Shown here: positions 53,845 through 64,000 of the stretch, piece after piece | Layout of the letters: every line of letters starts with the position of its first letter | How positions within the stretch are numbered: the stretch's first letter is position 1 | NCBI RefSeq assembly: GCF_000024905.1 | Contig: NC_013522.1 | Span: forward strand, 124,001-188,000 | Direction: 5' to 3' | Length of the DNA: 64,000 nt | From: Thermanaerovibrio acidaminovorans DSM 6589 | Lineage (GTDB): Bacteria > Synergistota > Synergistia > Synergistales > Synergistaceae | Position numbers and translations under genes: made by a program | Notes under the pieces: generated by a model | Seen by the model: the letters and a program-made list of their open reading frames with translations, nothing else | The model's database searches: none | What the model was told of the DNA's origin: nothing

Positions 53845-56358
53845 TCAGTTCCCCAAGGAGGATACGAAGGCCTCCACCACCTGGGGGTCGAAGATGATTC
53901 CCTTGAGGGAGGCTATCTCCTCCAGCGCCTCCCGATGGCTCAGGGGCCTCCGGTAGGGTCTGCCGCTGGTCATGGCCTCGTAGGCGTCCGCCAGGGCGAA
54001 GATCCGGCACTGGATGGGGATCTGATCCCCCTTGAGTCCCCGGGGGTATCCGGAGCCGTCGTATCGCTCGTGGTGCAACAGGATCAAGTCTGCTACGGAT
54101 ACTATCTCCTTCACGTTCTGGGCTATCATGTAGCCCACCTCGGGGTGTCGTCGGATGTCCTCCATCTGGTTCTCCGTCAGTGGGCCTTCGGCCCTCAGAA
54201 CCTCCGGAGGTATTCCTATCATCCCTATGTCATGGTAGTAGGTCAGCAGGGAGAGATCCTCCATCTCCCTGGGGCTCAGATTCATGGCGGATCCCACCGC
54301 AAGGCAGATTTTCTTGAGGCGGTTCCTGTGGTCTTCGTCCTCGTGGCATCGGGAGCTCAGGGCGGACAGTATCCGGTCCAGCAGCATCTGCCGCTGGTCC
54401 CTCCCGTCGATGAGCTTGTGTCGGTACATCATCTCCTCCGCCTCCTTCATGGCGGGGAGGATGCCCTGGCCTGGATTGGACCTGGTACCCCAACCTAGGG
54501 CGATGCTCATGGGTATGTCACCCAGGGGGGAATCCCGGACCATCTCCCGGATTCGCTGGGCGGCCATCTCTGCCCCCCGCTCGGTGGCTCCCACCAGGAG
54601 GATCAGGAACTCATCTCCCCCCCATCGGCCAACCACATCCCCCCGTCGGCATGCGGCCTTGAGGACCTTGGCGGCGTTGATAAGGAGGGCGTCTCCCCTC
54701 TCGTGGCCGAAGGCGTCGTTGGTCATCTTGAGGGCGTTAACGTCCGCCATGATGACCGATACGGGCATCACCTGCTCCTCCTCCAGCCGAGAGATCTCCT
54801 CCTCCAGGAACCGGCGGTTCGGCAGTTTGGTGAGCGGGTCGTGATAGCTCATATACAGCATCTTATCCCGCCACTGCTTCTCCTGTCCCACGTCTCGGAG
54901 GACAGCCACCGCCCCGGTGACCTCTCCCAGGGAATTCCTTACGGGAGAAGCGCTGCCGGAGATGTGGATCTTACCCCCTGGGGTGTTGGCCACCGCATCG
55001 GATATGGGGATTATCCTTCCGGAACGGATGGCGGCTCCCAGGGGATCCCCCTCGTTCAGGGTCTTGGACTCAATTATGGAGAAGACATGGGAGAAGGGCC
55101 TGCCAAGGGCGTCCTGCTCTTTGATCCCCGCCATCTTGAGGGCCGATGGGTTGATGGACGTGATGGTGCCGCCCGCATCTGTGGCCACCACCCCGTCAGC
55201 GATGCTCATAAGGGTGGTGTTGAGGGTCTCCTTCTCCTGGTGGAGTCTCCTCTTCGCCTCCTCCCGCTCGGTTACGTCAAAGATGATCGAGAAGAGGGCG
55301 GTGCTTTCGCCGATGTTTACCGGAGCGGTGAAAACGTCCACCAGCCTCACCGCGCCGCTCCGGAGCCGGTGGGGGAACAGGAAGTAGCGTTGCTTCCCAT
55401 GGGCGGCCAGGAGGCTACGCCTTCTCACCTCCTCCTCGGGGAGCTGGTTGATGTCCTGAATGGTCATCCGGGTGATCTCCTCGTGCCGGTAGCCGTAGAA
55501 GTTCAGCGCCGATGGGTTCGCGTCCAGGATCTGCCCCGACTCGGGATCAATGAGGAGCATCACCGCCGGGTGCTCCCGGAACATGGCCTCGTAGCGCCTG
55601 AGCGCCGCGTCCCTCTCTTCCTGGGCCCTTCTCTCGTCGGTCACGTCCTTTATGAACCCCACTATGTGGGACGGGGCATGGTCAAGGAAGGAGGGCACCA
55701 GGGAGGTTTGCAGCAACCGCACCTGGTCGTTGGGGAGGAGGAAACGCTCGGCCACCGTTATGGGGGAGCGGGAATTGATGCAGTCCCGGTAGTTGGCCTC
55801 CACCATGGCCCCCATGCGATCGCCGAGCAGCTCCCGGGCGGTGAGCCCCCGGACGTCCCGAGAGCCTATCATGAACATGTCCCGGTAGAGGCGGTTCACC
55901 AGCACATAGCGGAATGACCCGTCCGGGTGGGCCCTCACCAGGAAGGCCCCCTCCTGGATCCCCTCGAACACGTCCTCGAACTCCAGGGAGATCTTCGAAA
56001 CCCTCTCCCCCTCCACCTCCAGCAGGTCTATCCGCCTCATCTCCTGGGACACGTCCTGGAAGATGAGGAGGCTGACCCCCTCCGCCGGGGCGGTGCGCTG
56101 GATGTTGAACGTCCTGTCCTTCGCCTTGAGGTAGCCACGCTCACCCGCCGGTAGCCCGGCCAGGTCCGAAAGGTCGCAACCCCCCAAATGGGGCAGGTCC
56201 GACAGGATGGCCCCCTCCAGGTCCTCCCGGTCGAGAAGCCCGGCGAACGCGGGGTTGTGGTAGATGACCCTTGGAGGGGGGCCATCCTCCAGCAGGAGCA
56301 GGGGGTAGGGCCATGACTCGAACGCCCGGGGAAGGATTTCCCGGTACCTGGTGTCCAT
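53845..56358 (-). CDS. multi-PAS protein with GGDEF and HD-GYP domains
   Basis: An 837-residue soluble c-di-GMP enzyme. Three to four PAS domains (about 10-110, 130-250, 265-370 and 385-500) are followed by GGDEF (GRWGGDEFLILL near 577, with RRGD I-site) and HD-GYP (HDIGMIGIP near 707 and HHERYDGSGYPRGLKG near 765). Both catalytic signatures are nearly complete, so it could both make and break c-di-GMP; the HD-GYP Lys in HDIGK is replaced by Met. PAS domains suggest a redox or small-molecule cue. ATG 56358 follows AAGGGGGG. A TATAAT on the minus strand (56410-56415) may be its -10 box. Confidence 0.9.
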   Translation of the reverse strand: MDTRYREILPRAFESWPYPLLLLEDGPPPRVIYHNPAFAGLLDREDLEGAILSDLPHLGGCDLSDLAGLPAGERGYLKAKDRTFNIQRTAPAEGVSLLIFQDVSQEMRRIDLLEVEGERVSKISLEFEDVFEGIQEGAFLVRAHPDGSFRYVLVNRLYRDMFMIGSRDVRGLTARELLGDRMGAMVEANYRDCINSRSPITVAERFLLPNDQVRLLQTSLVPSFLDHAPSHIVGFIKDVTDERRAQEERDAALRRYEAMFREHPAVMLLIDPESGQILDANPSALNFYGYRHEEITRMTIQDINQLPEEEVRRRSLLAAHGKQRYFLFPHRLRSGAVRLVDVFTAPVNIGESTALFSIIFDVTEREEAKRRLHQEKETLNTTLMSIADGVVATDAGGTITSINPSALKMAGIKEQDALGRPFSHVFSIIESKTLNEGDPLGAAIRSGRIIPISDAVANTPGGKIHISGSASPVRNSLGEVTGAVAVLRDVGQEKQWRDKMLYMSYHDPLTKLPNRRFLEEEISRLEEEQVMPVSVIMADVNALKMTNDAFGHERGDALLINAAKVLKAACRRGDVVGRWGGDEFLILLVGATERGAEMAAQRIREMVRDSPLGDIPMSIALGWGTRSNPGQGILPAMKEAEEMMYRHKLIDGRDQRQMLLDRILSALSSRCHEDEDHRNRLKKICLAVGSAMNLSPREMEDLSLLTYYHDIGMIGIPPEVLRAEGPLTENQMEDIRRHPEVGYMIAQNVKEIVSVADLILLHHERYDGSGYPRGLKGDQIPIQCRIFALADAYEAMTSGRPYRRPLSHREALEEIASLKGIIFDPQVVEAFVSSLGN

Positions 56359-56429
56359 GGTGATCCCCCCCTTCGAGCTGGGTGTCGATTTAGATAGTTA
56401 TACCACACTATTATACATCGCCGAAGGAG

Positions 56430-56466
56430 AAAGGCCAGGCCCCGGCGGGGCCGGGGCCTGGCCTTT
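56430..56466. terminator. 16-bp perfect hairpin between AGCS and PAS-GGDEF genes
   Basis: AAAGGCCAGGCCCCGG and its exact complement around a 5-nt loop. It follows the AGCS stop (minus strand), with TTTCTCCTTC after the stem, and ends that transcript just before the PAS-GGDEF promoter. Confidence 0.7.
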
Positions 56467-56469
56467 CGG

Positions 56470-57843
56470 TCAGTTTCCGTCGTAGGAGGGGTCTGGATCG
56501 GATTTCAGCTTCGACTCGTAGTCGTTCATGGCTCTGACCGCCAAATTTGACAGGAGTATTATGCCGACCAAGTTTAGGAGGGCCATTATGCCGTTGAAGA
56601 AGTCCGCCAGCTCCCAGACCAGGGGCACCGACGAGGTGGCGCCGAAGAGGAGCATCCCCAGCACGATGACCCGGTACGCGCCGAGCCCCAAGGTCCCGCA
56701 GTTGGGGAACAGGTACTTCAGGTTGCTCTCCCCGTAGTAGTAGTTGCCCAGGATGGAGGTCCAGGAGAAGAAGAGCAGGGCGGCGGCTATGAAGTAGGGG
56801 CCCCAGCTTCCAACCGCGGACCGGATGGCCAGCTGGGTAAGCTCGATGCCGGTGGCGCCGCTGCCCAGTTGCCCTGATACCAGGATTATGGTGGCGGTGG
56901 CGGAGCAGACCAGCAAGGTGTCCACGAAGACCCCCATCATGGCCACGAAGCCCTGCCGGGCCGGATGGCGAACCTCCGCGGTGGCGTGGGCGTTGGGGGT
57001 GGAGCCCATGCCCGCCTCGTTGGAGAAGAGCCCCCGGGCCACCCCGTAGCGGAACGCCTGGGCCACCGTGTGCCCCAGGACGCCCCCCGCCACCTGCTTG
57101 GCCCCGAAGGCCCCCTGGAAGATCATGGATATGATGGAGGGCAGGAGCGATATGTGGGTCAGGGTTATGTAGAGGGAGATGGCTATGTAGGCGATGGCCA
57201 TGACGGGCACCACCACCTCCGCCACGTGGGCGATCCGCTTGAGGCCCCCGAAGATGACCACCGCGGTGACCGCCATGAGAACCGCCGCCACCGGTAGCTC
57301 CCTCATGCCGAAGGCGCCCCGCAGACCCGCCGCTATGGAGTTGCTCTGCACCGCGTTGAAGATGAAGCCCATGGCAACGATGATGGACACCGCGAAGAGC
57401 ATCCCCATCCAGCGCTGGCCCAGCCCCTTCTCCAGGTAGTAGGCGGGGCCGCCCCTATAGGTACCGTCCTGGTCCTTCACCCGGAACAACTGGGCTAGGA
57501 TGGCCTCACCGCATATGGTGGCCATGCCGAGAACCGCGGTTAGCCACATCCAAAATATGGCCCCTGGGCCTCCAGACACCAGCGCGGTGGCAACCCCCGC
57601 CAGGTTGCCGGTCCCCACCTGGGCCGCCAGGCCGGTGCAGAGGGCCTGAAAGGAGCTTATGCCCCCCTCCTGAGACTTGCGTCCCCCGAGGGTCACCTTG
57701 AACATGTGGCCGAAGTGCCTCACCTGGGGGAACCGAAGCCTGAGGGTGTAAAAGACCCCGGTGCCCAACAGGAGCCACACCATCACCTTGCCCCACAGCA
57801 CCCCGTTGGCGCTGGAGACCAGATCCATGAGAAAGCCTTCCAT
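56470..57843 (-). CDS. AGCS-family alanine/glycine:cation symporter, second copy
   Basis: A 457-residue membrane protein with 10-11 hydrophobic segments. The AGCS signatures are QVGTGNLAGVATALVSGGPGA and SNEAGMGSTPNAHATAEVRHP. It is not a recent duplicate of the gene at 11947; only the family motifs are shared. ATG 57843 lies in the context GGGAGGCGGTAGG. Its promoter region holds a 16-base G/C run (57882-57897) that could make expression unstable. A hairpin ends the gene. Confidence 0.9.
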   Translation of the reverse strand: MEGFLMDLVSSANGVLWGKVMVWLLLGTGVFYTLRLRFPQVRHFGHMFKVTLGGRKSQEGGISSFQALCTGLAAQVGTGNLAGVATALVSGGPGAIFWMWLTAVLGMATICGEAILAQLFRVKDQDGTYRGGPAYYLEKGLGQRWMGMLFAVSIIVAMGFIFNAVQSNSIAAGLRGAFGMRELPVAAVLMAVTAVVIFGGLKRIAHVAEVVVPVMAIAYIAISLYITLTHISLLPSIISMIFQGAFGAKQVAGGVLGHTVAQAFRYGVARGLFSNEAGMGSTPNAHATAEVRHPARQGFVAMMGVFVDTLLVCSATATIILVSGQLGSGATGIELTQLAIRSAVGSWGPYFIAAALLFFSWTSILGNYYYGESNLKYLFPNCGTLGLGAYRVIVLGMLLFGATSSVPLVWELADFFNGIMALLNLVGIILLSNLAVRAMNDYESKLKSDPDPSYDGN

Positions 57844-57881
57844 CCTACCGCCTCCCGCATGATAAAATTAAACAGACCCCC

Positions 57882-57897
57882 GGGGGGGGGGGGGGGG
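57882..57897. repeat. G16 homopolymer run in a divergent promoter region
   Basis: Five C are followed by sixteen G between the AGCS gene (-) and the polysaccharide-export operon (+). Runs of this length slip during replication and can switch promoters on and off. It is also a place where assemblies err. Confidence 0.8.
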
Positions 57898-57912
57898 ACA
57901 ATAAATGCTATT

Positions 57913-57968
57913 TTGTCTTTGCGGCCTAGTCAATATAACGTAAATAGTTAAAATATTCGCCTTATAAT
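57913..57968 (+). promoter_or_regulatory. AT-rich promoter region of the export operon
   Basis: Two -10 candidates are visible: TATAAC (57934-57939), 15 nt after TTGTCT (57913-57918), and TATAAT (57963-57968), with no good -35 box. The latter would give a short leader of about 18 nt to GTG 57993. Confidence 0.4.
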
Positions 57969-57992
57969 TCGCGAGAATGGAGGGGTTCCTCG

Positions 57993-60143
57993 GTGACTTC
58001 CCGTCCGGTTCGGTCGTTCCTCCTGGCCCTGTCCCTGGCTATCCTGTGCCAGCTATCCCCCCAGCCCTCCATGGGGGCCACCCTGCCGGAGCTGGAGGAG
58101 ATGGTGTCCTCCTCGCCGGAGGTGCTCCGGGCGGTGTACGACCTCCTGGCGTTGCAGGCTCGGGAGGAGGCGCTTGTGGCCTCCTCGGGGCTCAAGTTCT
58201 TCGCCGAGGCCTCCGTGACCGGATCCAACCGGCCGGAGTCCAGGTCCGACGACGCCAGGCTGGAGGGCTACTCCACCCTGTCCGGCCGGGTGGGGCTGGC
58301 GTTGCCGGTGTTGGGGTCCTGGCATCGAGAGCGGGTCTCCCAGATCCGGGCCCGGATCGACTCCCTCAAGGGGGCCCAACGGGAGATGGAGGCCCGGCGG
58401 GCCAACCTGACCGCCCTTCGGAAGGCCTACGTGCTTCTCTGGACCTCCCAGCGACGGGAGCTCCTCTCCCGCTGGTTCCTCCGGCTGGAGGGGCAGGCCA
58501 TGCCCCCCATGCGCCGCAGGACCGAGGAGGGCTACCTCCTCAAGGCGGACCTGCTGGAGATGGAGAGCTGGTTCCACCTGGCCCGGCGCCAGCTTGAGGG
58601 GGCCCTGGCGGACCAGGAGATGGCCATGGGGATCATCCGCAAGGCCACCGGCCGGCCGTACCAGGAGATCCTTAAGGCCGAGACCCCCTCCCTGCGGCCG
58701 GTCCGCTACTCCAAGGGGGCCCTGGGCAGGTACGTCAACCAGGATGACCCGGAGCTCGGGATCCTTCAGCAGGTGACGGAGCAGATGGAGCTGGCGGCCC
58801 ATCACCAGGGCCGGGGAGGGTACGAAGCGGAGGTGAGGGCCGGGGTCTCCTACAGCCTGGAGGACCCGGGCAGGGGCGGCCACGACGCTTTCGTCTCCTT
58901 CGGCCTGACAGCCCCGGTGGGGCTCTCCAAGGCCTCCCGGCTCTCCAGGGAGGCGGCCCTCTTCGAGGCCCAGGCGGCGGCGGAGGAGGAGGCGATCCAC
59001 CGGATGGACCGGCTCTCATCCATTCTGCACGGGGTCTCCCGCTGCCGCCACGCCCTAAGTCAGCTGGAGTTCTCCTCCGCCAGGCTCGAGTCCGCCCTGG
59101 AGGCCCTCCGGGTGGCCGACCTGAGGGCCTCCTCCATTCCGGGAGACGTGCTGGAGCGGCGCCTTAGGGCCCAGATGGACCTCTTCTCCGCCGCCATGGA
59201 CGTGGTGGAGGCGGAGGGACTGGCCATGCAGTACCACGCGGAGCTGCTGGAGCTGATCCCCCAAGACGGCCCCCAGGAGGACCCCGTGGTGATCTCCTCC
59301 CCCCCTCCGGGCACATCCCAGCGGTGGGCCCTGGTGATGACCGCCCTGGGGGGCACCCCATCGCCCAGGGGGCAATCCACCGGTGCCCTACAGCTTGGGG
59401 CCTACCTCTGGAACGGGGACCGGGTGCTCAATGGGGAGGGGGACCGGTTGCTGGAGCTGATCGGACGGTCCCCCTTCCGGCGGATCCTTATCTCCTTCAC
59501 CTCCCGGGGGATCCGGTCCATCCTGGACGGGGGCCCGGCCTCCCGGCGCCTCCACGATTTCTTGAGGTCCGCCAGATCATCGGGGGTGTGGGTGGAGCTC
59601 CTGCTGGGGGACCCGGACTTCATCCTGGATCCTAAGGGCATGGTGGACCTGATATCCCGCCTCAAGGGCCTGCCCTTCGACGGGCTCCACCTGGACCTGG
59701 AGGTGGACCAGATTCCCGGCGCCTCCCAAAGGCGGCAGGAGCTGAACCGGCGCTTCCTCCAGGCGGTGGAAGCGGCGGCCAAGGCCTCCCCCTGGGGGGT
59801 CTCGGTGTCCATCCACCCCCGCTACCTGGAGGAGCCCTTCCGGCAGGAGACCCTCGAGGGGCTCCATCGCTCCCGGGTCCGGGGCGTGGCGGTGATGATC
59901 TACACCTCCTCGACGGACAGGGCGGTGGAGCGGTTCCTGTCCGTCGCCCGGGGCGTGGGGGACATCAGGATGTGGCTTGCGGTGTCGGTGGAGGGGAACG
60001 TCTCACCGGAGGAGAGCCTTCGAGGGCTTGGGCCAGCGGGTTTCTCGGACGCCCTGGACCGGATGGGCAGGGCGGGAGTTAGGTCCGTGCTGGTCCAGTC
60101 CTTCGAGGACCACCTGTCCATGACTGGAGGTGGAGGCAGATGA
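57993..60143 (+). CDS. TolC-like outer-membrane factor fused to a C-terminal TIM-barrel domain
   Basis: A 716-residue exported protein. The signal peptide spans residues about 7-29 (LLALSLAILC core). Residues about 30-428 have the helical heptad pattern and duplicated layout of TolC-type outer-membrane factors (LPELEEMVSSSPEVLRAVYD, then REALVASSGLKFFAEASVTG; a second copy of the pattern at about 255-425). After a Pro-rich linker (about 430-442), residues 443-716 resemble a glycoside-hydrolase-like TIM barrel: RRILISFTSRGIRS, FDGLHLDLEVDQ (about 560-571), WGVSVSIHPRYLEE, WLAVSVEGN. The Asp/Glu of HLDLE is a candidate active site. GTG 57993 follows GGAGGGG. It overlaps the adaptor gene by 4 nt. 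Confidence 0.75.
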   Translation: MTSRPVRSFLLALSLAILCQLSPQPSMGATLPELEEMVSSSPEVLRAVYDLLALQAREEALVASSGLKFFAEASVTGSNRPESRSDDARLEGYSTLSGRVGLALPVLGSWHRERVSQIRARIDSLKGAQREMEARRANLTALRKAYVLLWTSQRRELLSRWFLRLEGQAMPPMRRRTEEGYLLKADLLEMESWFHLARRQLEGALADQEMAMGIIRKATGRPYQEILKAETPSLRPVRYSKGALGRYVNQDDPELGILQQVTEQMELAAHHQGRGGYEAEVRAGVSYSLEDPGRGGHDAFVSFGLTAPVGLSKASRLSREAALFEAQAAAEEEAIHRMDRLSSILHGVSRCRHALSQLEFSSARLESALEALRVADLRASSIPGDVLERRLRAQMDLFSAAMDVVEAEGLAMQYHAELLELIPQDGPQEDPVVISSPPPGTSQRWALVMTALGGTPSPRGQSTGALQLGAYLWNGDRVLNGEGDRLLELIGRSPFRRILISFTSRGIRSILDGGPASRRLHDFLRSARSSGVWVELLLGDPDFILDPKGMVDLISRLKGLPFDGLHLDLEVDQIPGASQRRQELNRRFLQAVEAAAKASPWGVSVSIHPRYLEEPFRQETLEGLHRSRVRGVAVMIYTSSTDRAVERFLSVARGVGDIRMWLAVSVEGNVSPEESLRGLGPAGFSDALDRMGRAGVRSVLVQSFEDHLSMTGGGGR

Positions 60144-61240
60144 GGATCCGTTTCAGCCGTAAGGAGTCCCCCAACGTGGACCCCGGGGGGTTAAAGGTGG
60201 ACTACGGCCCCGCCAGGAGGGCAGCCCTGAAGTGGCGGTGGTACCTGTTGCTGTTGCTCCTGTTCTCCCCCCTGGCCTTCTTGCTGTGGAAGGTGGCCAG
60301 CTACGCGATCCTGGTCTCCGCCCCCGGGGTGGTCAGGCTGGAGACGGTCACCGTGTCCTCCCCCATCCAGGGGGTGGTGTCCCTGCCCCTCAGGCCCGGG
60401 CAGCTGGTGAGGCGCGGGGACCAACTCTTCTCCGTCCGGGACCCGTCGGTGGAGGCCCGCCTTGCGGTGCTCAACGCGGAGCTGGGGGCCCTCAAGTCCT
60501 CCCCCTACCGCCCACCATCACTTAATCGGGTGGACCTCTCCCCCCTGGCGTCCCAGGTTCAGGTTCAGCGCAGGTCCGTGGCATATCAGCGGGAGGTCCG
60601 GGACCGGATCCGGGACCTGTTCTCCCGCGGCGCCGCCACCCGGGCGGAGCTTGACCAGGCAGAGGACCGGCTCCGGCAGGCGGAGGCGGCCCTGGCCCAG
60701 GCGGAGGCGGCCCTTTCGACCCTCAAGCCCTCCGCCCAGCCGGCATCCCAGTTCAGCGAGTACGAGGCCATGCGGCTCAACCGGATGGCCCAGATCCAGG
60801 CGGAGGCGGAGCAGCTAGGCTCCGTGCGCCACAAGGTGGTAACCAGCCCGGTGGACGGGGTGGTGCTGGAGCTACTGGTTAACGATCGAGGGTCGGTCCC
60901 CATGGGGGGAGGGGTGGTCACCCTGGGGGACCGCTCCAGGGTCCGGATATGGGGCTACCTGGACCCCAGGTTCATGCCCTACGGGGAGGTGGGCTCCCCG
61001 GTCCGGGTCCGCACGCCCGACGGGATGACGGTGCAGGGACGGGTGGAGGCGACCCCGACCCTGAGCACCCAGATCCCGCCGGACCTGTCGGGGCCGTTGA
61101 ACGAGCGGGGCAGGGCGGTCCTCATCAGCGTCACCTGCCCGGAGCTACCCGCCGCCTACCACGTGGACGGCATAAAGGTGGACCTGCGCTTCCCCTTCTC
61201 CTGGAGGAACGCCATGAGGTCCCTGGGGATCCGGATCTAG
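60140..61240 (+). CDS. HlyD-like membrane-fusion (periplasmic adaptor) protein
   Basis: A 366-residue protein with a cytoplasmic basic N-terminus, one membrane helix (about 35-58, YLLLLLLFSPLAFLLWKVA), a split lipoyl/biotinyl-like domain (PIQGVVSLPLRPGQLVRRGD and TSPVDGVVLELLVNDRG), a coiled-coil hairpin rich in Ala/Gln/Arg (about 165-200, EDRLRQAEAALAQAEAAL) and a C-terminal beta barrel. Such adaptors join inner-membrane pumps to TolC; Alg44-type relatives serve alginate export. ATG 60140 overlaps the upstream stop. No ABC or RND pump is next to it, so the glycosyltransferase is the likely partner. Confidence 0.85.
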   Translation: MRIRFSRKESPNVDPGGLKVDYGPARRAALKWRWYLLLLLLFSPLAFLLWKVASYAILVSAPGVVRLETVTVSSPIQGVVSLPLRPGQLVRRGDQLFSVRDPSVEARLAVLNAELGALKSSPYRPPSLNRVDLSPLASQVQVQRRSVAYQREVRDRIRDLFSRGAATRAELDQAEDRLRQAEAALAQAEAALSTLKPSAQPASQFSEYEAMRLNRMAQIQAEAEQLGSVRHKVVTSPVDGVVLELLVNDRGSVPMGGGVVTLGDRSRVRIWGYLDPRFMPYGEVGSPVRVRTPDGMTVQGRVEATPTLSTQIPPDLSGPLNERGRAVLISVTCPELPAAYHVDGIKVDLRFPFSWRNAMRSLGIRI

Positions 61241-61253
61241 GGGGGTGAGTCGG

Positions 61254-62600
61254 TTGATCGGAGAGGCGCATGGGGGTCATGGGATCCTCCGGGTGGGCTC
61301 GGTTCTGGCCCTGAGGGAGGCGCTGGAGGGGGCCACCAGGGGGATCCTGGTGCCCCGGGGGGCCGAGACGCTCGAGGTGCTGATGGAGCTCCGGTCCCAC
61401 CGGGATCGGGGGCTCATCCCCGCCTTCGTGGAGGGGGAGACGGACCGGTTCCTGGCGGAGCTGTGCGACGGGGTGGACCTGACCGAGGCCCAGATGTCCT
61501 CCCGGGCGGAGGAGATATGGGACCGGCTACAGGGGATCCAATGGGATCTCCTGGGCTCCAGCCTGGATTACCGGCTAATCGCCTTCCTGTACTCTAGACC
61601 CCACAGGGGCCTTTCGCCGGTGCTCAGGCCCTTGACCGGCCGGGTCTACCTCTGGCCCCTGATGGAGGCCTTAGGGGGAGGCAAGGTGGATCCCCAGGGC
61701 TGGATAGCCCGGCTGGCGGACGGGGGATACCTGGAGGAGGGGGAGCTGGTGGAGCGGGTCCGCTTCTGCCCCTTCTGCGACGGGGGGCACCTGAACTACG
61801 TGGACCTGTGCCCCTCCTGCGGGAGCATGGACATAGAGAACGTCCAGTTCATCCACTGCTTCACCTGCGGCCGGGTGGGCCCCAAGGAGGACTTCCTGGT
61901 CACCGGGGAGATGATATGCCCCTTCTGCGCCGCCAGGCTGAGGCACATAGGGTCCGACTACGACATCCCCATGGAGAACCAGCGATGCCGGGACTGCGGG
62001 GCCGCCTTCTCGGAGCCCAGGGTCTCCTGCCACTGCCTCCTATGCGGCCAGTGGAGCGACCCGGCGGACCTGATCCCCCGGAACTTCCGGGTCTGGAGGC
62101 TCACCGATAAGGGGGTCCTGGCGGCCCAGACGGGGGAGATGCAGAGCCGGTACGAGGTGATGGACACCCTAAACTACATGAAGCCCGAGCCCTTCCGGCA
62201 CATCCTGCAGTGGATGCTGAACCTCTCCAGGAGGCCACCGGTGGAGCCCTTCTGCCTGCTTTCCATATCCTTCGGGGACCTGGACGCCTTCGTGGCCCGG
62301 GTTGGGCTCCGGCGGGCCATGGAGACCCTTCGCTCCATCATGGGAAGGATAAAGGAGATGATCCGAACCACCGACGTGAGCACCCGGTCCGAGCATGAGG
62401 AGATCCTGCTTCTGTTGCCCAAGACCCCCCTGGAGGGGGGGCTGGTGGTGGCCCGCCGCATAGGACAGATTCGGTCTGCCCTGCCCCAGGAGGTGGCCTC
62501 CACCTTGCCCCTGGAGGTGAAGATCGCCTCGGTGCCCGAGGACCTGGAGGACTCGGCGGACGTGGACCTGTTCCTTGCGAAGCTGCGAGAGGTGAGGTGA
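61254..62600 (+). CDS. zinc-ribbon (TackOD1-like) protein with degenerate GGDEF-like domain
   Basis: A protein of about 448 residues. Residues about 165-290 contain five Cys pairs (CPFC, CPSC, CFTC, CPFC, CRDC, then CHCLLC), most easily read as several zinc ribbons. I think this is the TackOD1 domain family, recalled not searched. Residues about 315-448 look like a GGDEF/cyclase fold (PFCLLSISFGDLDAFVARVG...RRAMETLRSIMGRIKEMIRTTD), but the GGDEF signature is replaced by SEHEEILLLLP, so it should not synthesise c-di-GMP and may bind a nucleotide. TTG 61254 follows GGGGGGTG at 6 nt. It lies between adaptor and glycosyltransferase, so a regulatory role in polymer synthesis is likely. Confidence 0.75.
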   Translation: MIGEAHGGHGILRVGSVLALREALEGATRGILVPRGAETLEVLMELRSHRDRGLIPAFVEGETDRFLAELCDGVDLTEAQMSSRAEEIWDRLQGIQWDLLGSSLDYRLIAFLYSRPHRGLSPVLRPLTGRVYLWPLMEALGGGKVDPQGWIARLADGGYLEEGELVERVRFCPFCDGGHLNYVDLCPSCGSMDIENVQFIHCFTCGRVGPKEDFLVTGEMICPFCAARLRHIGSDYDIPMENQRCRDCGAAFSEPRVSCHCLLCGQWSDPADLIPRNFRVWRLTDKGVLAAQTGEMQSRYEVMDTLNYMKPEPFRHILQWMLNLSRRPPVEPFCLLSISFGDLDAFVARVGLRRAMETLRSIMGRIKEMIRTTDVSTRSEHEEILLLLPKTPLEGGLVVARRIGQIRSALPQEVASTLPLEVKIASVPEDLEDSADVDLFLAKLREVR

Positions 62601-62601
62601 C

Positions 62602-63954
62602 TTGGGACCCTTCCTCGTTACCGATGTCCTGCGGATGGCGGCGGCGGCGATCCGGGGGCTACTGGAGGATCCCCTGTCGTCCCAGGTGTGGGTGGTGATC
62701 TTCAAGTTCGTCCCCATGGTGGTCTTCCTGGAGCTACCCTACTACGCCTTCGTCCTGGCTGGGGTGCTCAAGTACGCCATGGAGAGGGCCCTGCTGCCCT
62801 GGGAGGAGGTGCAGTACCACCCGAGCGTGTCCTGCATAATCACCTGCTACTCCGAGGGGGAGGACGTGAAGCTCACCATAAGGACCCTGGCGCACCAGAT
62901 CTACCCCGGCAGGATCCAGATAATACCGGTCATAGACGGGGCCCTGGTGAACTCCCACACCCACCGGGCGGCGCTGGAGATGATGGACCAGGTGATGAGG
63001 GCTCCCAACCGGGAGCTGCTGGTGTTGCCCAAGTGGCAGCGGGGGGGGCGGGTCTCGTCGCTCAACGCGGGGCTGTCGGTGGCCCGGGGGGAGGTGGTGA
63101 TGGCCCTGGACGGGGACACCTCCTTCGACAACGACATGGTCTCCAAGGCGGTGCGCCACTTCAGGGATCCGAACGTGGCGGCGGTGGCCGGGTGCCTCCG
63201 GGTGCGGAACTGGAGGTCCTCCCTGGCGGCAGCGCTGCAGGGGCTGGAGTACATGCTGGCCATAGGGGTCAGCAAGACGGGCCTTAGCCAGTTCAACGCG
63301 GTGAACAACATATCCGGCGCCTTCGGCATATTCCGGCGGGAGGTGCTGAACCTGATCATGGGCTGGGACGCGGGGAGCGCCGAGGATCTGGACATCACCA
63401 TGAGGATAAAGAACTACTTCGGCCGATACCGGTCGGTGAGGATCCTCTTCGACCCGGAGGTGATAGGGCACACCGACGCGCCCCCCACGTTCCGGGGCTT
63501 CTTCAAGCAGCGCCTCCGCTGGGACGGGGACCTGTTCTACATATACGTCCGCAAGCACCTGAAGTCCTTCTCGCCATCCATGATGGGCTGGAGGAACTTC
63601 ATCACCGTAACCCTGGGAGGGCTCTACTTCCAGATCGTGGTGCCCCTGATCCTGTTGGTCTACACCGCCTTCAGCTTCATCACCTTGCCGCTGGGGACGG
63701 TATTTAGGATCCTCTTGCTGGTATACTTGTTCTACCTGGGGGTCACCTTGGTGTTCTACCTGCTGGGGCTCGCCTTCGTGTCCGAGCGGCCCAGGGATGA
63801 CCTGATCTTGGGCGTCCTGCTGCCCCTCTTCCCGGTCTTCACCTTCGCGTCCCGCCTATGGTCCGCCGCGGCGGTCATCTGGGAGATGGTGGCCCGGGGG
63901 CACCTGGACTCCTCCATGGCTCCCTGGTGGGTCCTCAGGAAGGGAAGGTTCTGA
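62602..63954 (+). CDS. processive family-2 glycosyltransferase, polysaccharide synthase-like
   Basis: A 450-residue inner-membrane enzyme. One or two N-terminal helices (about 24-50) precede a GT2 domain with SCIITCYSEGEDV, the metal-binding ALDGDTSF, the catalytic-base AEDLDI segment and the QRLRW motif of processive synthases such as BcsA, HasA and PgaC. Four or five C-terminal helices (about 330-430) would form the polymer channel. There is no PilZ domain, so c-di-GMP control, if any, would work through the neighbouring GGDEF-like protein. TTG 62602 has GAGGTGAGGTG upstream and is 1 nt after the previous stop. The polymer sugar is unknown. Confidence 0.85.
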   Translation: MGPFLVTDVLRMAAAAIRGLLEDPLSSQVWVVIFKFVPMVVFLELPYYAFVLAGVLKYAMERALLPWEEVQYHPSVSCIITCYSEGEDVKLTIRTLAHQIYPGRIQIIPVIDGALVNSHTHRAALEMMDQVMRAPNRELLVLPKWQRGGRVSSLNAGLSVARGEVVMALDGDTSFDNDMVSKAVRHFRDPNVAAVAGCLRVRNWRSSLAAALQGLEYMLAIGVSKTGLSQFNAVNNISGAFGIFRREVLNLIMGWDAGSAEDLDITMRIKNYFGRYRSVRILFDPEVIGHTDAPPTFRGFFKQRLRWDGDLFYIYVRKHLKSFSPSMMGWRNFITVTLGGLYFQIVVPLILLVYTAFSFITLPLGTVFRILLLVYLFYLGVTLVFYLLGLAFVSERPRDDLILGVLLPLFPVFTFASRLWSAAAVIWEMVARGHLDSSMAPWWVLRKGRF

Positions 63955-63986
63955 TATGTCAATGTGGCGTCTTGGAGGTGATGGGC

Positions 63987-64000
63987 TTGCCGAAGGTTAG
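63987..64000 (+). CDS. start of a further gene, cut by the right edge
   Basis: GGAGGTG (63974-63980) is followed 6 nt later by TTG and Pro-Lys-Val codons, the same start pattern as the neighbours. An in-frame ATG lies at 63981. Only four codons are inside the window, so nothing can be said of the product beyond its likely membership of the export operon. Confidence 0.4.

Follow-up and report, generated by a model that had tools for sequence, protein, structure and literature searches.

Known export systems and the operon

By gene content, as far as published descriptions go, the cluster that the locus studied here most resembles is mxdABCD of Shewanella oneidensis. MxdA has a degenerate GGDEF domain (PMC3409153) and has been described as an effector that binds c-di-GMP and belongs to a putative exopolysaccharide machine (PMC7666153, PMC3691769). 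MxdB is a membrane GT2, MxdC is an efflux-type protein, and mxdABCD is needed for the three-dimensional biofilm (PMC3691769, PMC3409153, PMC7666153); mxd mutants form flat biofilms (PMC7666153). MxdD is a conserved hypothetical protein without known homology, and its role is open (PMC3691769). The nearest idea of export by a GT2, an HlyD adaptor and TolC is the XcsAB-TolC route for cyanobacterial cellulose, which has been proposed and whose model is unvalidated according to a 2025 review (PMC12430437). XcsA carries a PilZ domain, and the accessory hydrolase, XcsC, is an endoglucanase. The channel and the hydrolase are separate genes, and the channel lies elsewhere in the genome (PMC12430437).

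We analyzed a window of 64,000 nucleotides from Thermanaerovibrio acidaminovorans DSM 6589 (NC_013522.1, positions 124,001 to 188,000), and all coordinates are positions of this window. Four genes form the operon:

57993..60143, + strand: P0001, a TolC–barrel fusion of 716 aa (open reading frame, Pfam, AlphaFold model, structure matches)
60140..61240, + strand: P0002, an HlyD-like periplasmic adaptor (HlyD_3, E 2.4e-10), with a 4-bp overlap with the stop of the fusion gene
61245..62600, + strand: P0003, a TackOD1 zinc ribbon plus a degenerate GGDEF domain with an RxxD I-site (TackOD1, E 1.1e-68; GGDEF, E 6e-7)
62602..63954, + strand: P0004, a membrane GT2 synthase with DGD, AEDLD and QRLRW (PF13641, 69 bits)

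The degenerate GGDEF/I-site protein, the adjoining GT2 and the HlyD-type protein of mxdABCD thus have equivalents in the window, by published description, and the gene order is not the same. XcsAB-TolC differs in having a cellulose synthase and a hydrolase of another type than the one found here (PMC12430437). The earlier note had set the locus against the Bcs, Pel and Pga systems. This comparison was incomplete, since mxdABCD is nearer by gene content and XcsAB-TolC is nearer as an idea (PMC12430437). BcsB and BcsC are absent from the operon, where the mates of P0004 include the HlyD protein and an outer-membrane factor. Membership of the operon in the Bcs and Pel systems was ruled out by the missing parts.

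P0003 has the sequence RTTD, followed by EHEEI where GG(D/E)EF is expected. Across its family, the RxxD I-site is present in 73 of 76 proteins, and GG[DE]EF in none of the 76. Because the cyclase motif is absent and the I-site is present, a receptor role is likelier for P0003 than cyclase activity, and we regard the protein as a candidate MxdA-like c-di-GMP receptor. On the same sequence grounds, the "diguanylate cyclase" labels carried by genes of this cluster are probably wrong, and the proteins are likely receptors. TackOD1 is a zinc-ribbon domain whose role is open (PMC5847659).

The motifs of a processive GT2 (DGD, ED and QxxRW) are intact in P0004, and QxxRW is found in 78 of 79 homologues. 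Among the NCBIfam models PgaC_IcaA comes nearest, with 136 bits where 422 are required, and NodC is also near. Because this score falls far below the cut-off, a polymer of GlcNAc is only hinted at. The Pfam scan of P0004 gave no PilZ domain. There is no deacetylase gene in the operon, and the four-gene unit has no gene for an ABC, MFS or RND pump. Directly 3′ of the GT2 gene and beyond the window (locus L005, 1981-5270) lie genes that seem to encode an HDOD-type and a PAS-GGDEF-HD-GYP-like protein, which are perhaps cotranscribed and may provide further c-di-GMP signalling.

Overall structure of the fusion protein

The P0001 gene starts with GTG and runs as a single unbroken frame. Its parts are:

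57993..58079, + strand: residues 1–29, probable Sec signal peptide (...PQPSMGA/T; read by eye, with a model helix at 4–20)
58074..59267, + strand: residues 28–425, outer-membrane-factor (TolC/OprM-type) domain (Pfam OEP; Z 21–25 against OMF structures)
59268..59381, + strand: residues 426–463, equatorial strand/helix and linker (AlphaFold model, alignment of relatives)
59382..60131, + strand: residues 464–713, (β/α)8 GH18/PgaB-like barrel (model, structure and profile matches, conservation)
59688..59702, + strand: HLDLE motif on β4 with H566, D568 and E570, candidate catalytic residues (conservation)

The Pfam scan of P0001 matched OEP (PF02321) alone, in two stretches of the N-terminal half, and gave no match in the C-terminal half. 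Residues 36–213 score 37 bits for OEP, whose cut-off is 22. The NCBIfam model type_I_sec_TolC matched weakly, with 11.9 bits against a cut-off of 225. A single-sequence AlphaFold model reached a pLDDT of 47 overall and about 80 in the barrel; its VIA-align matches were topped by GH1 and ene-reductase barrels. It was replaced by an AlphaFold2 model built from an alignment of 67 sequences, solely the window and locus proteins, with a mean pLDDT of 92.9 and a pTM of 0.68, and the match list of this better model superseded the first.

The channel half of the model has two 71-residue helices (108–178 and 311–381), return helices at 184–219 and 386–421, and four outer-membrane strands (68–80, 91–106, 278–291 and 294–306). 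This is the layout of outer-membrane factors (OMFs), with two long helical hairpins and four membrane strands per protomer. Residues 28–423 superpose on the OMF 5azs with a Z of 25.4 (rmsd 3.7 Å, 388 aligned; VIA-align), and the channel half matches TolC (1ek9) with a Z of 23.1. P0001 thus shares domain and fold with the TolC/OprM family, whereas its sequence match is weak and it adds a C-terminal glycoside-hydrolase-like barrel. The segment between the two halves, residues 426–463, has a low-confidence core (455–463), and its length differs between relatives.

The eight β/α units of the barrel have strands at 467–472, 497–500, 533–538, 564–567, 603–607, 631–635, 659–665 and 698–702. The structure prediction proposed in the earlier note found TolC-like helices as well as a barrel, so that its division of the protein, about 428 TolC-type residues followed by a TIM barrel of about 270, stands. 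The OEP score of 37 bits, the OMF layout and the Z of 25.4 bear out the first part, and the complete (β/α)8 unit at 464–713 bears out the second. The same note had placed a trimming enzyme at the exit duct, and here OMF topology points elsewhere. OMF chains have their C-terminus at the equatorial domain, in the periplasm. Because the chain after helix 386–421 ends at this domain, the barrel should lie in the periplasm around the channel, near its equator, rather than at the extracellular exit. It would form a periplasmic collar instead.

Structural relatives of the barrel

The best structural match of the barrel (residues 466–712) is the GH18 chitinase 6k7z, with a Z of 17.8, an rmsd of 3.7 Å and 228 aligned residues (VIA-align). 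The other top matches are Cwp19 (Z 17.5) and the C-terminal hydrolase domain of PgaB (Z 16.9); VIA-align Z values less than 1 apart are ties, and a common fold does not equal a common function. Concanavalin B is also a neighbor (Z 15.8), and GH1 enzymes match at about 15.5, below GH18, Cwp19 and PgaB. PelA/GH166 is not among the listed matches, and such an absence carries no weight against likeness.

When searched as a single sequence against the sequences in the PDB, P0001 gave no match. A profile of 54 barrels gave as its best match 10yv (E 1.4e-4), with most of the domain aligned. 10yv_A, a Cellulomonas fimi protein deposited as a putative GH97, has LD-E and IxxQ motifs that match those of the barrel. 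The matches that follow are mostly GH18 chitinases, from an E of 0.018 upward (chitinase A, 4mnj, 0.018), with one unrelated row (MAD2B, E 0.7). The Pfam GH18 model (PF00704) matches 4 of the 54 barrels weakly (best E 1.2e-4; the L096 barrel scores 20.4 bits against a cut-off of 29.6), and P0001 does not reach its cut-off.

The barrel has in common with GH18 chitinases the fold, a D-x-E on β4, an M-x-Y on β6 and the profile matches. It differs from them in its fusion to a channel and in the second Asp of DxxDxDxE, which is His in 67 of 67 barrels. As DxxDxDxE is not satisfied, with His in place of the second Asp, the barrel is GH18/PgaB-like and not a strict member of GH18. The PNAG system PgaABCD is related to the locus at two points, with PgaC as the nearest NCBIfam of P0004 and the PgaB hydrolase domain as a structural neighbor of the barrel. 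PgaA is a porin of 16 strands that also has TPRs, and in PgaB the hydrolase is joined to an N-terminal deacetylase. P0001 has an OMF in its N-terminal part instead.

Candidate active site

The β4 motif of the barrels is FxGxHLDxE, in which the last Asp and the Glu of the GH18 motif are retained and the second Asp has become His. In the profile alignment, E570 falls on the Glu of the chitinase A sequence LDYEYP, a residue replaced by Gln in the mutant entries 4mnl and 3wij. The suggestion that HLDLE is a candidate catalytic site is strengthened by this, with E570 placed on the GH18 catalytic Glu. D568 and E570 are invariant in the set of 67 barrels, which was partly selected on an HLDLE-type motif. 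The locus scan pattern demanded FxGxHLDxE or one other motif, and the invariance of F562, G564, H566, L567, D568 and E570 is therefore inflated. Both residues are also invariant in the 11 sequences of a search set that was not picked by motif, and HLD[IV]E is retained in a divergent clade reached through TackOD1, likewise chosen without the scan motif. On this conservation, D568 and E570 are the candidate catalytic pair.

In a TIM barrel, the active site lies on the face formed by the C-terminal ends of the strands. The residues kept in at least 90% of the 67 barrels lie at these ends in 18 of 27 cases, against 4.4 expected (p = 2e-10). When only polar and aromatic residues were counted and β4 was left out, the figure was 9 of 12, against 1.8 expected (p = 2e-6). 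The conserved strand-end residues are Y471, W473, H608, R610, Y637, S665, E667, Q702 and W704, in addition to H566, D568 and E570. Chance conservation of the barrel was ruled out by this clustering, with or without β4. The window barrel itself sits on a long branch of the barrel tree and departs from the family at W543 (Phe), W704 (Phe), Q506 (Gly) and Q664 (Val). Since two conserved Trp residues are Phe there, its specificity may differ.

The altered GH18 motif (H566) and the conserved aromatics lost from the window member would also suit a barrel that binds or guides the polymer in the manner of chitinase-like lectins, or that modifies sugars in another way. Concanavalin B, a chitinase-like protein that is not an enzyme, is after all among the structural neighbors. 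Lectin-like relatives of GH18 usually lose the catalytic Glu. The presence of both D568 and E570 in 11 of 11 motif-independent sequences, together with HLD[IV]E in a very divergent clade, makes a non-hydrolytic barrel fairly unlikely.

Distribution and gene context

A scan of genome contigs with the single sequence gave no match, and an alignment-based query was needed. With the latter, a scan of 84,980 species genomes yielded 80 loci. Genes for the fusion or the barrel, the HlyD-like protein, the TackOD1/degenerate GGDEF protein and the GT2 occur together in 75 of these, and the remaining five are incomplete through contig ends. Two gene orders were found. The window type, fusion–HlyD–TackOD1/GGDEF–GT2, occurs in Synergistota and relatives, and TackOD1/GGDEF–GT2–fusion–HlyD occurs in Pseudomonadota and others. 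By record title, the loci come from Pseudomonadota, Synergistota, Cyanobacteriota, Thermodesulfobacteriota, Myxococcota, Planctomycetota, Aquificota, Bacteroidota and Bacillota, a list that includes several MAGs, some of whose bins are surely mixed. One Synergistaceae-like copy (L073) lies on a contig binned as the archaeon Methanomethylovorans and is almost certainly mis-binned. Fusions of the same type are present in 13 of 52 Synergistota-family genomes searched, counting that of the window and one with only the barrel end on its contig. In an even sample of gammaproteobacteria, 5 of 369 genomes carry the canonical family. Rather than a one-off, the fusion represents a conserved family whose four-gene context stays the same.

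Two rival explanations bear on these counts. In a few relatives (L066, L074 and L154) the frame is split, as might be expected if a sequencing or assembly error had joined two genes; such an artefact is already refuted by dozens of independent genomes in which, as in the window, the gene is one unbroken frame. The cargo might also be a drug, a peptide or a lipid, with the GT2 gene an incidental neighbor, and OEP and HlyD domains are indeed common to efflux pumps and type I secretion. With the GT2 as the sole inner-membrane motor in a unit without ABC, MFS or RND genes, and with its gene kept alongside the others in 75 of 80 loci from several phyla, we consider this very improbable.

On Aeromonas caviae plasmids, the fusion gene lies between genes for a "diguanylate cyclase" and a glycosyltransferase on one side and the HlyD gene on the other. 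The whole cluster is carried by mobilizable 29-kb plasmids of this species (L025 and L026), and it can therefore move horizontally.

Split, divergent and fusion-free clusters

Four Synechococcus-type loci encode the barrel as an open reading frame of its own, 277–359 aa long, in the slot of the fusion, between GT2 and HlyD. One of them (L084) starts with a lipobox-like LLLSGC. In the barrel tree, these stand-alone barrels are nested among fused Pseudomonadota versions (17 rows, SH-aLRT 100), and fission after fusion is therefore the simpler reading. Other TolC proteins are present in both of the stand-alone-barrel genomes searched.

These loci also bear on whether the barrel cuts peptidoglycan, making room for the channel as dedicated lytic enzymes do in other secretion systems. 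The predicted position near the channel equator would bring the barrel close to the wall, and Cwp19, a wall-lytic protein of C. difficile, is a structural neighbor (Z 17.5). Some GH18 enzymes act on peptidoglycan. Against this, Synechococcus has retained the barrel, but not its channel, in the polysaccharide operon, and GT2 and HlyD genes accompany the barrel in every complete locus. One would also expect to meet a wall opener on other TolC pumps, but the searches were run with queries for the whole family. We regard a peptidoglycan substrate as quite unlikely.

A barrel-independent search, run with TackOD1, turned up five gammaproteobacterial clusters (L153, L155, L157, L158 and L163) with a divergent protein of about 670–700 aa upstream of HlyD. 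The C-terminus of these proteins has HLD[IV]EPH and the β6 M-x-Y. Pfam OEP was not recognized in the two that were tested, so that their channel half is presumed rather than detected. Clusters of TackOD1/GGDEF, GT2 and HlyD without a fusion also exist, Plesiomonas and Photobacterium among them, and the barrel is thus not required by all relatives of the system. In one fusion-free cluster (L152, 7471-8379), a gene of the GH16 family follows HlyD, as if another hydrolase filled the slot.

The upstream region

Two elements precede the fusion gene:

57882..57897, + strand: tract of 16 G that lies 95 bp ahead of the fusion start codon
57923..57957, + strand: conserved block TAGTCAATATAA...TAAA...TT, kept in two other genomes of the genus; probable regulatory or promoter region

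The G16 tract lies about 25 bp upstream of the conserved block. No other G or C run in the whole genome (1,848,474 bases, one contig) is as long as 12, and all A or T runs stay below 11. Two congeners lack G16 at this place, and each has one G12 elsewhere. It is reasonable to guess from the sequence that the tract may act as a phase-variation switch of the operon. Rfam gave no RNA in 56300-64000.

Proposed machine

Our preferred reading, to which we give a probability of about 0.62, is a c-di-GMP-regulated machine for polysaccharide export across the envelope, in which the barrel borne by the channel would be a periplasmic hydrolase of the GH18/PgaB type acting through D568 and E570. It builds on the domains, the fold, the conserved active-site face, the gene linkage, the intact synthase motifs and the degenerate cyclase motif with its I-site. 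P0004 would make the chain, presumably an exopolysaccharide, and extrude it across the inner membrane; P0002 would span the periplasm, and the TolC-type half of P0001 would form a trimeric outer-membrane channel. Binding of c-di-GMP at the I-site of P0003 would switch on the synthase, as is thought for MxdA in Shewanella. Each channel would carry three barrels, placed in the periplasm near the equator by OMF topology, and these might cut stray periplasmic polymer or set chain length, a role likened to those of BcsZ, PelA and PgaB in other systems. Their substrate would perhaps be a polymer of GlcNAc.

Several observations count against this export machine. The second Asp of the GH18 motif is His in all barrels, and the window barrel is without some of the conserved residues. 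Related TackOD1/GGDEF–GT2–HlyD clusters lack any fusion. A sealed conduit from the inner membrane through HlyD to TolC would also shield the chain from a periplasmic enzyme.

A broader proposal is that these loci, which occur in several phyla, represent a class of synthase-dependent export of their own. The channel would itself carry a periplasmic hydrolase of an undescribed GH family, so that channel assembly and polymer trimming would be physically coupled, and G16 would switch the window operon. We hold this only tentatively, at somewhat less than even odds. Synthase-dependent export, OMFs and GH18-like hydrolases are already known. A literature search of partial coverage turned up no TolC–hydrolase fusion kept together with one operon across several phyla, which is weak evidence of absence.

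Significance

How single-synthase polysaccharides pass the outer membrane by way of HlyD/TolC-type parts is an open question in the field (PMC12430437). Here, one conserved operon holds a channel, an adaptor, a synthase, a probable c-di-GMP receptor and a hydrolase-like domain fixed to the channel. The labels "TolC family protein" and "diguanylate cyclase" given to the Aeromonas proteins may mask the roles of an enzyme and a receptor. In so compact a system, export, trimming and control would be testable together.
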